Below are positions 1,484 through 60,045 of a DNA stretch of 64,000 bases, piece after piece. The notes under the pieces were generated by a model. The model was not told where the DNA came from and did not search any database. It saw only the letters and a program-made list of their open reading frames with translations. Each line of letters begins with the position of its first letter. The stretch's first letter is position 1. The translations under genes and the position numbers were made by a program. Source of the DNA: Stenotrophomonas sp. ISL-67 (GTDB taxonomy: Bacteria > Pseudomonadota > Gammaproteobacteria > Xanthomonadales > Xanthomonadaceae); contig NZ_JAGGRL010000003.1 in assembly GCF_018612915.1 (NCBI RefSeq), forward strand, positions 1-64,000. Reading direction: 5' to 3'.

Positions 1484-1607
1484 GTCGGGAGGGTGGCTAA
1501 TACAACACCCTTTGGGGAATACGCCCGCCGGCTTTCCATGTCTACGGTTTCTAACCTCCCGACTCCCTCGCCATCCCGGCGAGGGACCTTCCTACTGGAG
1601 GCACACC
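1484..1607 (+). promoter_or_regulatory. structured 5' leader of the symE-like gene
   Basis: Two perfect inverted repeats stand directly before the gene. GTCGGGAGG at 1484-1492 pairs with CCTCCCGAC at 1555-1563 and closes a loop of about 60 bases. CCCTCGCC at 1565-1572 pairs with GGCGAGGG at 1578-1585 across a 5-base loop. The Shine-Dalgarno GGAGG (1597-1601) can also pair with CTTCC at 1588-1592 (one G-U), which would hide it. Stacked stems ending at a sequestered ribosome site look like a folded regulatory leader. Classical symE is controlled by an antisense RNA (SymR); no antisense promoter is evident here. Confidence 0.5.
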
Positions 1608-33427: not shown

Positions 33428-35317
33428 TCACGCCACCCGGCTGCGCCGCGCGCGCTCCAGGTGCACCAGCAGCAGCGAAATCGCGGCCGGGGTCATGCCC
33501 GGGATGCGCTGGGCCTGGCCGATGGTCTGCGGGCGCACCCGCTCCAGCTTCTGCTGCACTTCGGCCGACAGCCCGCGCACGCTGGCGTAATCGAACGCCG
33601 CATCGATGGCCGTGTTCTCATGGCGCTGCTGGCGTTCGATTTCCTCGCGCTGGCGGTCCAGGTAACCGGCGTACTTCACCCCGATCTCAACCTGCTCGGC
33701 CACCTTCGCATCGTCCACGCCCGGGCCCAGCGAGGGCACCTGCATCAGCTTGGCGTAGTCCAGTTCCGGGCGCTTTATCAGGTCCAGCACATTGGTTTCG
33801 CGGCTGACCGCCACGCCCAGCGCAGCTTCCACTTCGCGGCCCAGCGCGTTGGCCGGGGTCGCCCACAGCGCACGCAGGCGCGCCGATTCCTGCGCCACCG
33901 CCTCCTGCTTGGCCTGGAAGGCAGCCCAGCGGCGGTCGCCGACCACGCCCAGTTCGCGGCCGATGCCGGTCAGGCGCACGTCGGCGTTGTCTTCGCGCAG
34001 CTGCAGCCGGTACTCGGCGCGGCTGGTGAACATGCGGTACGGCTCGGTGGTGCCGTGGGTGATCAGATCGTCCACCAGCACGCCCAGGTAGGCCTCGTCG
34101 CGGCGCGGGCACCAGCCCGCTTCGTCGCGAACGTGGCGCGCGGCGTTGAGCCCGGCCAGCAGGCCCTGCGCGGCGGCTTCTTCATAGCCGGTGGTGCCGT
34201 TGATCTGGCCGGCGAAGAACAGCCCGGATACCGCCTTGGTCTCCAGCGTGTTGTTCAACCCGCGCGGGTCGAAGAAATCGTATTCGATGGCATAGCCCGG
34301 CCGCGTGATGTGCGCGTTTTCGAAGCCACGGATGCTGCGCACCAGCGCCAGCTGCACGTCGAACGGCAGCGAGGTGGAGATGCCGTTGGGGTAGATCTCC
34401 ACCACGTCCAGCCCTTCGGGCTCGACGAAGATCTGGTGGCTGGCCTTCTCGGCAAAGCGCACTACCTTGTCTTCGATGGACGGACAGTAACGCGGGCCGA
34501 TGCCCTCGATCTGGCCGCTGTACAGCGGCGAGCGGTGCAGTGCGCTGCGGATGATCTCGTGGGTGTGCCCGCTGGTGTGGGTGATCCAGCAGCTCACCTG
34601 GGCCGGGTGCTCGGCCACGCTGCCCAGGAAGGACATCACCGGGCGTGGATCGTCGCCCGGCTGCTCGTCCATCACGCTGTAATCCAGCGAGCGGCCATCG
34701 ATGCGCGGCGGGGTGCCGGTCTTGAGCCGGTCGATCGCGAACGGTCGCTCGCGCAGGCGCGCGGCCAGCGTGGTGGCCGGCGGATCGCCCATGCGGCCGG
34801 CCGCGTACTGGGTCTGGCCGACATGGATCTTGCCGGCCAGGAACGTGCCGGCGGTGAGCACCACCGCCGGGGCGTTGAACTGCAGCCCGGTCTGGGTGAT
34901 CACCCCGCGCACCGCGTCGCCCTCAATCACCAGGTCGTCCACGGCGGCCTGGAACACGGTCAGGTTCGGCTGCGCCTCGACCATGCCGCGGATGGCCATG
35001 CGGTACAGGTTGCGGTCGGCCTGGCAGCGGGTGGCGCGTACGGCCGGGCCCTTGGAGGCATTGAGCGTGCGCCATTGGATGCCGGCGCGGTCGGCGGCAT
35101 GCGCCATGGCGCCGCCCAGGGCGTCGATCTCCTTGACCAGGTGGCCCTTGCCGATGCCGCCGATGGCCGGGTTGCAGCTCATCGCGCCGATGGTTTCTAC
35201 GTTATGGGTCAGCAGCAGCGTACGTGCGCCGCTGCGGGCGGCCGCCAGCGCGGCTTCGGTGCCGGCATGGCCGCCGCCGATCACGATGACGTCGTAGCCG
35301 TAGAAAGAATCGGTCAT
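33428..35317 (-). CDS. mnmG: tRNA uridine-5-carboxymethylaminomethyl modification enzyme
   Basis: A 629-aa FAD enzyme that works with MnmE to modify the wobble uridine of several tRNAs. Start at ATG 35317 ([19 protein letters not shown]); the frame is open 45 codons further but lacks a ribosome site there. The FAD loop [32 protein letters not shown], the catalytic cysteine segment [12 protein letters not shown] and [20 protein letters not shown] are present. Full length for the family. Confidence 0.97.
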
Positions 35318-35445: not shown

Positions 35446-35462
35446 TTGGCACGTTCTCTGCA
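35446..35462 (+). promoter_or_regulatory. sigma-54 (-24/-12) promoter
   Basis: TTGGCACGTTCTCTGCA fits the RpoN consensus TGGCACG-N4-TTGCA with one mismatch (C for the first T of the -12 box). GG at 35448-35449 and GC at 35460-35461 have exactly the required 12-base register. Expected transcription start is about 35473. No coding gene follows on this strand before a strong terminator at 35558-35593. Confidence 0.7.
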
Positions 35463-35472
35463 GATAACCCAA

Positions 35473-35593
35473 TAGCACCCAGGATGGCAGGCGCCGAAAG
35501 GCACTACGGACCGGAATTGGAACAGGGGCCGGTTCATGCGCATCATGGGGAAGCAGAAGGGCCGGTAGTCGGGGGACTGCCGGCCCTGTTTTT
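35473..35593 (+). ncRNA. candidate sigma-54-dependent small RNA
   Basis: About 120 bases lie between a well-formed -24/-12 promoter and a Rho-independent terminator, in a 492-base intergenic region, with no credible coding frame. The frame starting at 35484 has no spaced ribosome site and would read through the terminator. Two GGGCCGG segments (35526-35532 and 35560-35566) can each pair with the same CCGGCCC (35580-35586), so alternative folds are possible. The position between mnmG (minus) and the downstream lipoprotein (minus) makes it an independent unit. Target and class unknown. Confidence 0.6.
35558..35593 (+). terminator. Rho-independent terminator of the candidate sRNA
   Basis: AGGGCCGGTAGT pairs with ACTGCCGGCCCT (one G-T) around a short G-rich loop and is followed by GTTTTT. 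Confidence 0.85.
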
Positions 35594-35610
35594 ATCGCCT
35601 TGGAAAACAA

Positions 35611-35635
35611 AAGGCCCCGCCATTGGCGGGGCCTT
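35611..35635. terminator. bidirectional hairpin terminator
   Basis: AAGGCCCCGCC and GGCGGGGCCTT form a perfect 11-bp stem with a 3-base loop. The strand with the better U-run is the minus strand (TTTTGTTTTCC after the stem), so it may also end minus-strand transcripts coming from the lipoprotein gene. Confidence 0.65.
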
Positions 35636-35642
35636 CTGCATT

Positions 35643-35707
35643 GTAGGTGCCGACATCCGACAGGGCCGGAACAGGGGGGATCCAGATGTTCCTGTCGGAT
35701 ATCGACA
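35643..35707. repeat. GTAG-headed long hairpin
   Basis: GTAG at 35643, then 17-base arms (35648-35664 and 35691-35707) that match in 15 positions around a 26-base loop. Longer than a standard SMAG but with the same GTAG head. Nothing coding nearby. Confidence 0.5.
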
Positions 35708-35809
35708 TAGAGCTCAATGTGACGCCGTATGTCGTTTTTGTCACTTTTCGACCGAGGTCGTCACTGCCCGGCTAGATTGACCTGCCAGGCAGGTGAAAAT
35801 CAAGCGGTC

Positions 35810-36355
35810 TCATCTCTCTTGTGTGCGCTGGTTCAACTTATTCATGTTGCGCCAGGGGGAGCCATTGTTCCGTTGGGCCGGCGGGTTGGGCCGGGACTGC
35901 GGCGCGCCCACCGGTCGCTGCTGCTGCGGTTGGGGACGCTGCTGCGGCGGGCGGTTCTGACGCGGCGGGCGCGAACCCACCGAATCCATGTTCCGCCAGG
36001 GCGAACCGCCGTTATTGGGCGGGCGCGGACGGTCGGGGGGGCGCACCTGGCCACCATTGCCATTGCCCGGGCGGGGCGGCGGGCGGTGGTGATGCGGCGG
36101 GCGGTAGTTCGGGTACGGCCGGTAGATCGGGTAGTTGCTGTAGCCACCGTAGCCGCCATAGCCGTAATAGCCGCCACCCCCGTAGTAGCCGCTGCCGTAG
36201 CCATACGGGTAGCCGGCGGGGTAGCGGTATTCCACCGACGGTGCACCGTGGTAATAGCCGGTGCCACCGCCGCCACCGCCGCCGACATAGTCGTAGGTCG
36301 CGCAACCGGACAGCGTCAGCAACAGGCCGCCGGCAAGTATCAGGCGCATCTTCAT
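35810..36355 (-). CDS. Gly/Tyr/Pro-rich lipoprotein
   Basis: A 181-aa lipoprotein started at ATG 36355, with lipobox LSGC (Cys16). A Gly run (about 22-29) and a Tyr-Gly-rich segment are followed by a Pro/Arg/Asn-rich half. The peptide GSPWRNM occurs twice, near residue 117 and near residue 166. No folded domain is recognisable; probably an outer-membrane or surface-exposed low-complexity protein. Compositional bias makes homology searches unreliable. Divergent from the dehydratase gene. Confidence 0.7.
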   Translation of the reverse strand: MKMRLILAGGLLLTLSGCATYDYVGGGGGGGTGYYHGAPSVEYRYPAGYPYGYGSGYYGGGGYYGYGGYGGYSNYPIYRPYPNYRPPHHHRPPPRPGNGNGGQVRPPDRPRPPNNGGSPWRNMDSVGSRPPRQNRPPQQRPQPQQQRPVGAPQSRPNPPAQRNNGSPWRNMNKLNQRTQER

Positions 36356-36470
36356 GAAGGGGTCCCCCCTGTAGGGTATGGGCCCAGCATCAGGCCGCCG
36401 CATTGAATCGGCCCTTAACTTTGCCCGGGCCGGATGAACGGTTGCCATCGTGGCACGTTAATCTTGTGTC

Positions 36471-59968: not shown

Positions 59969-60045
59969 TGGTGCGCCCGGAGGGATTCGAACCCCCGACC
60001 AATGGCTTCGGAAGCCACTACTCTATCCGGCTGAGCTACGGGCGC
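59969..60045 (-). tRNA. tRNA-Arg (anticodon CCG)
   Basis: Read on the minus strand the 77-base gene starts GCGCCCGTAGCTCAG and ends GGGCGCACCA. The acceptor stem GCGCCCG pairs with CGGGCGC, the TpsiC arm is GGGGGTTCGAATCCC, and the anticodon loop is TTCCGAA, so CCG reads arginine codon CGG. CCA is encoded. Confidence 0.97.

Follow-up and report, generated by a model that had tools for sequence, protein, structure and literature searches.

The stretch of DNA analysed here (the window) is the first 64,000 nucleotides of a contig of Stenotrophomonas sp. ISL-67. The locus of interest lies beside mnmG and comprises a small RNA, a second predicted RNA that faces it, and the elements that may control both. 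Its features are as follows.

33428-35317, minus strand: mnmG, divergent neighbour of asX1, recognised from its translation
35446-35461, plus strand: predicted sigma-54 promoter (-24/-12) of asX1, TTGGCACGTTCTCTGC, from a strict pattern match and conservation
35476-35593, plus strand: asX1 small RNA (RF02235)
35519-35528, plus strand: conserved loop of asX1, GGAACAGGGG, containing GAACAGGG
35559-35593, plus strand: predicted intrinsic terminator of asX1 with a G-rich loop, a strong hairpin then GTTTTT
about 35768-35600, minus strand: full predicted extent of RNA B, unannotated and convergent with asX1
35604-35633, minus strand: predicted intrinsic terminator of B, a GC hairpin then TTTTGTTTT
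35636-35714, minus strand: conserved hairpin of B, from model R1 and alignment A1
35668-35683, minus strand: loop region of B, GGAUCCCCCCUGUUCC, with a 10-nt exact complement of the asX1 loop
35748-35764, minus strand: dyad GTGACGACCTCGGTCGA, proposed PilR site, with 8 of the 10 fixed bases of the pilA-type GTGAC-N7-GTCAC
35772-35804, minus strand: predicted sigma-70-like promoter of B, CTTGAT ... CAATCTA, from its pattern
35810-36448, minus strand: open reading frame of a glycine-rich, lipoprotein-like gene, ending just upstream of the predicted B promoter

A cmscan search against Rfam matched positions 35476-35593 (+) to family RF02235, asX1, with 85.1 bits against a gathering cut-off of 70, and the family model was covered whole (positions 1-115 of 115). 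The identity of this RNA as asX1 is thus near certain, which replaces the view of the initial annotation that it belonged to no recognised family. That annotation had also placed the RNA downstream of mnmG; asX1 is in fact divergent from mnmG, which has its start at 35317 and is read from the minus strand. Among 71 asX1 loci, mnmG was inside the fetched flank in 69, nearly always in divergent orientation (L032 was the exception seen), and a sequence resembling the glycine-rich lipoprotein-like gene was present in many. Elsewhere in the window, positions 1484-1571 (+) matched sRNA-Xcc1 (RF02221; 60.8 bits against 53) and positions 59972-60045 (-) a tRNA gene (RF00005).

Searches of the Xanthomonadaceae found asX1 in 266 of 297 genomes at E <= 0.001, with 229 above the cut-off. 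At this threshold the 14 control genomes gave no match; an additional search at E <= 1 also matched two of the 14, below the cut-off. All 24 matches in an order-wide sample of 151 genomes fell inside the family, and G040 was the sole family genome without a match among those listed in that sample. One genome (G077) was matched twice. The asX1-negative status of eleven genomes was deduced from gaps in the list of matches, and the totals agree. Comparisons were made on 102 asX1 loci from 48 genera, a non-random sample made up of the 30 best hits of the family search, 40 loci picked for genus spread, the window and 31 further hits. Nine low-scoring matches (L103-L111, including L105 with an E-value of 7.8e-4) were excluded as spurious because both the promoter and the asX1 loop were absent. 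asX1 is reported to be expressed in X. campestris pv. raphani (PMC4652430) and in cells of Xylella, which carries the RNA (PMC12189769). The literature searched on asX1 and Xanthomonas gave no role for it in the portions available, and those of PMC4652430 and PMC12189769 do not mention a sigma-54 promoter (the term RpoN is absent from the latter); the founding paper lies outside this comparison and the promoter may already have been published there. The family line returned for RF02235 names no promoter, activator or partner.

The box TTGGCACGTTCTCTGC was the only match in the 64 kb to the strict pattern TTGGCAC-N5-YTGC, for which a mean of 0.17 was expected and at least one match occurred in 16 of 100 shuffles. 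The looser TGGCRY-N6-TGC matched 13 times against 9.94 expected, i.e. no more rarely than chance. A single box in the window is therefore only weakly unusual taken alone, and it carries weight because it is conserved among loci rather than because of its rarity. TGGC(A/G)-N6/7-TGC was present in 71/71 loci from 28 genera and ended 13-15 nt before the RNA, a spacing that puts the predicted transcription start of the window's asX1 at about 35473-35476. Once weaker hits were included, 99 of 102 loci in 48 genera had a -24/-12 box with the GG/GC spacing; the exceptions were L098, L100 and L102, with L098 and L100 off by one base of the -24 element. Collectively, these comparisons make it near certain, as far as sequence can tell, that asX1 has a sigma-54 promoter. 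They bear out the RpoN-type box proposed by the initial annotation, which had staked its reading on conservation of the boxes in relatives, and together with the reported expression (PMC4652430, PMC12189769) they are in agreement with its view of a probable sigma-54-dependent small RNA. The gene rpoN was present in 293 of 297 family genomes. G034 was the only genome at least 90% complete that gave no rpoN match, and the asX1 hit was also absent there. Many members of the family had two rpoN-type matches per genome. No conserved enhancer was seen upstream of the box among the asX1 loci compared. A CRP/Clp-like sequence, TGTGA-N6-TCACA, lies about 60 bp upstream of asX1 in L001-L016 and L027 (exact in 13 of the 17 g18 loci). 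It was rejected as a general asX1 enhancer since it is lineage-specific, and in g18 it may provide further control of asX1 or mnmG.

The predicted fold of asX1 was stable (-61 kcal/mol, z -5.6), and the strong stem ending in GTTTTT was confirmed at its 3' end. A GGGGG run close to the 3' end was present in 93/102 loci; L085, which was tested poorly, is among the other nine. The most constant element was GAACAGGG in the loop, kept in 100 of 102 loci. Two GGGCCGG segments (35526-35532 and 35559-35565) and a CCGGCCC arm (35580-35586), from which the initial annotation had suggested a switch of fold, are real; the switch itself is not conserved and was rejected, a duplicated GGGCC-containing 7-mer that pairs with the terminator arm being found in 16 of 101 loci and in 0/17 of g18. 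RNAs of the CrcZ type carry an A-rich Hfq/Crc motif, AANAANAA. This motif was found in 0/101 asX1 loci, as the initial annotation had supposed from the window alone.

Facing asX1, a second conserved hairpin was detected, which we call RNA B. It was present in 102/102 asX1 loci, 99 of them by pattern and three (L011, L032 and L085) by model. An alignment of 53 sequences contained 17 stem pairs, 11 of which had changed on both sides with pairing preserved, and the loop was almost invariant across loci. B was assigned to the minus strand because the stem, read on that strand, had 119 G-U against 10 A-C cells, and because the predicted fold was more stable on the minus strand (-24.3 kcal/mol) than on the plus strand (-12.0 kcal/mol). 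Model R1 scored 75.1 bits at the locus, with a runner-up of 15.5 in the window, whose own sequence is among the 53 used to build the model. Run over a further 61 loci (411 kb), the model matched the mnmG loci only, and no second copy of B was seen there. Named-genome stretches with an asX1 pattern numbered 119, and 78 of the first 80 also contained B; the exceptions were L236, which stops less than 100 bases from the asX1 match, and a contig titled Acidimicrobiales (L242). A stretch titled Bacillus subtilis (L204) has the asX1 and B locus, probably through contamination or mislabelling. No Rfam family matched B at its cut-off in the window and six loci. A first pattern for a B promoter was found in 5/38 genera only and was dropped; once the spacer had been widened on the basis of these very data, a -35/-10-like pattern was found in 21 of 38 genera against 0.3 expected, a count to be read in the knowledge that the pattern was set after seeing the data. 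Taken together, the covariation, strand preference and distribution indicate that B very probably exists as an RNA. Its C-rich loop suggests, purely by analogy with sX13, for which this is reported (PMC3771888), binding to G-rich leaders. A search for B targets in 14 pilus loci returned scattered 8-9-mers, several within the pilR coding sequence, and nothing convincing.

The loops of the two RNAs are complementary. In 42 of 46 genera the longest stretch of asX1 exactly complementary to B included GAACAGGG, and it was usually the 10-mer GGAACAGGGG; in the g21 sequence the match was retained via a G-U pair. In comparison with shuffled asX1 the complement fell within the best 5% for 29 of 46 genera, a signal that is modest per genome and comes from non-independent genera. 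Duplex energies computed over the full lengths of the two RNAs showed none (mean z -1.0). The stronger case for pairing comes from the constancy of GAACAGGG and from the exceptions. In L032, B lies upstream of asX1 on the same strand, and both the closeness and the complementarity are retained; the complementarity is therefore no by-product of opposite strands. Eighteen asX1-negative genomes were requested and the mnmG locus was obtained from 16, those of G121 and G073 being incomplete. Four of these loci contained B: G040, G025 and G068 also had a loop resembling that of asX1, diverged beyond the reach of the family model, and G136 had B alone, asX1 being missing. Neither RNA was found in the mnmG loci of G009, G059, G086, G112, G198, G222, G268, G095 and the rpoN-negative G034. 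In G257 the sigma-54 box and terminator were kept, and the asX1 loop and B were both lost. We consider it likely from these patterns that asX1 pairs with B.

Transcription from sigma-54 promoters requires an enhancer-binding protein. In ten surveyed asX1 carriers, the number of Sigma54_activat domains ranged from 2 to 10 per genome, and one carrier, G249, had two such proteins only, NtrC and PilR. Reciprocal best hits of this pair were found in the nine others, and no further activator was common to all ten. The survey left out 6/40 proteins and 4/10 places of G017; a third common activator is excluded nonetheless, because G249 has only two. The NtrC of G249 was identified by TIGR01818 (689 bits). 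The second protein scored below every NCBIfam cut-off and was taken as PilR because pilin genes shared a 16-kb stretch with it in 10 of 14 loci. In agreement with this, Xylella is said to possess only NtrC and PilR as activators (PMC3224663), and in X. oryzae PilRX works with RpoN2 on pilA (PMC8657755).

Both proteins are widespread in the family (PilR in 280/297 and NtrC in 271/297 genomes, E <= 1e-110). NtrC, as the other activator common to the ten carriers, might instead drive asX1, the RNA then conveying a nitrogen-starvation signal. The carriers were tallied by hand, 237 being at least 95% complete and 29 less so; the NtrC status of G189, G198, G201, G224, G236 and G268 was read from list gaps, and the totals agree. 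Ten of the 237 lacked an NtrC match (G050, G133, G141, G151, G152, G169, G182, G185, G201 and G224, two of them single-contig genomes), and the absence was confirmed by domain search in the six that this search covered, i.e. all except G141, G151, G152 and G185. A full PilR match was missing in one of the 237, G101, a single-contig genome (L313, L316) whose pilR is interrupted in the assembly by a frameshift. Below 95% completeness, nine of the 29 carriers had no PilR match and six no NtrC match; the nine were 75-93% complete, three at 90-93%, and included the window's own genome (76%). G050, 99% complete, had PilR (79% identical) as its single enhancer-binding protein and a consensus asX1 promoter at L091. 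The dyad at the asX1 locus, described below, is moreover of the pilA type. Control by NtrC is thus improbable, and the NtrC-less carriers leave nitrogen, one of the signals named in the initial annotation, unsupported as the likeliest one. Elimination leaves PilR as the best candidate, and we regard it as the likely activator of asX1. In genus g42, the 13 genomes with an asX1 match all had PilR, and the three with no match were G257 (PilR not found), G222 and G268 (PilR diverged); the sigma-54 box is still there in G257 though the PilR match is absent. PilR without an asX1 hit occurred in most g10 genomes and in all five of g26, two of which had diverged forms of both RNAs, and G198 kept PilR with neither RNA beside mnmG.

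A candidate binding site lies on the far side of asX1. Pilin genes, 15 in all, were found in 10 of the 14 pilus loci, and the two that lack a sigma-54 box were not counted. In 10 of the remaining 13, the dyad GTGAC-N7-GTCAC, matched at 8 or more of its 10 fixed bases, lay 78-135 bp upstream of the box, against 0.93 expected by shuffling; this count is partly circular because the consensus was drawn from those pilA sequences. The asX1 loci were not used for the consensus. There the dyad occurred beside B in 38 of 46 genera, at 35-110 bp from the B loop; ten control dyads were found in 0 to 8 genera and an eleventh, related dyad in 18. In the window the dyad is 272-288 bp after position 1 of asX1, and the best matches at asX1 loci were mostly 225-362 bp after the asX1 start. 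L032 differs, its dyad having fewer than 8 of 10 fixed bases and lying upstream of asX1, adjoining B. The dyad overlaps the predicted start of B. We propose it as a putative PilR site, a name that it owes solely to its place before pilA. Enhancers downstream of the start have precedents at flagellar sigma-54 promoters.

Based on these results, we propose a model in which PilR and sigma-54 switch on asX1, and asX1 pairs with and neutralises B. PilR bound at the putative dyad, about 280 bp after the asX1 start, would loop to the asX1 promoter and start sigma-54 transcription; as the dyad sits where B is predicted to start, PilR may hinder B at the same time. The asX1 loop GGAACAGGGG would then pair with CCCCUGUUCC of B and neutralise it, B being the regulator proper, with a C-rich loop like that of sX13, and asX1 a sponge controlled by a pilus signal. 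We give this joint model an even chance. A stronger version, in which one PilR-bound element serves both the sigma-54 promoter of asX1 (from the far side of its gene) and the start of B, so that a pilus signal induces asX1 and silences B family-wide, is tentative.

Complementarity itself has no direction, and asX1 could instead regulate mRNAs with B as its antisense or sponge, in which case PilR may act on B, whose predicted start the dyad overlaps. The occurrence of B without asX1 in G136 and the joint loss of B and the asX1 loop in G257 argue against this reversal: the loop of asX1 seems to depend on B rather than B on it, with one case of each kind, and it is mainly from these two genomes that asX1 is proposed to neutralise B. 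We consider the reversed direction unlikely. Still less probable, the complementarity could be incidental if GGAACAGGGG were a common DNA or protein-binding motif, both copies of which read alike on one strand in all arrangements but that of L032. The pair counts assign B to the minus strand, and the complementarity persists in L032, where the orientation of B with respect to asX1 is reversed.

Two further alternatives dispense with B as the partner. asX1 could act directly on mRNAs or decoy sX13, its G-rich loops mimicking the 4G motifs to which sX13 binds. All 20 genomes tested contained sX13, an RNA with C-rich loops that represses mRNAs carrying 4G motifs, pilH and hfq among them (PMC3771888). 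Judged by eye, the match of the asX1 loop to the loops of sX13 spans about 6 nt (CCCCUG) and that to B 10 nt, and the G-run of the terminator loop was not found in 9 of 102 loci (the poorly tested L085 included), so we think this improbable, slightly more so than the common motif. Sequestration of RsmA/CsrA by GGA loops is very improbable. GGA does occur in the main loop of most asX1 sequences, yet it is missing in g33, g42, g50 and one g51 sequence, where the loop reads UGAACAGGG (g33, g42 and the g51 sequence) or AGAACAGGG (g50), whereas GAACAGGG is kept almost throughout; the RsmA sponge was rejected for want of a conserved GGA.

The RNA in the window and the asX1 of the Xanthomonadaceae (RF02235) are one and the same, the match being full-length and above the cut-off. 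B resembles sX13 of Xanthomonas (RF02232) in its C-rich apical loop on a stable stem, and differs in having one such hairpin where three C-rich loops are reported for sX13 (PMC3771888). Like the sigma-54 RNAs of the CrcZ/CrcY type, which are under CbrAB control (PMC8657755), asX1 would be an enhancer-dependent small RNA that counteracts a post-transcriptional regulator, but it lacks AANAANAA, would respond to another activator and has a proposed partner RNA rather than Hfq-Crc. RsmU of X. campestris, which derives from an mRNA 3' end and sequesters RsmA (PMC7694677), is likewise a xanthomonad RNA titrating a regulator, as proposed for asX1; unlike RsmU, asX1 has a promoter of its own and no conserved GGA. 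The regulator and sigma factor proposed for asX1 are those of RpoN2-PilRX on pilA in X. oryzae, where the targets named in the available text are pilus genes and no small RNA is mentioned (PMC8657755).

asX1 itself was already known; the link to PilR, RNA B, the loop complementarity and the dyad are proposed here as new. If the model is true, asX1 would gain a sigma factor, a molecular partner and, in PilS/PilR, an inducer that senses surface contact or the state of the pilus, B would be an RNA missing from Rfam, and control of the pilus would be joined to the RNA network.
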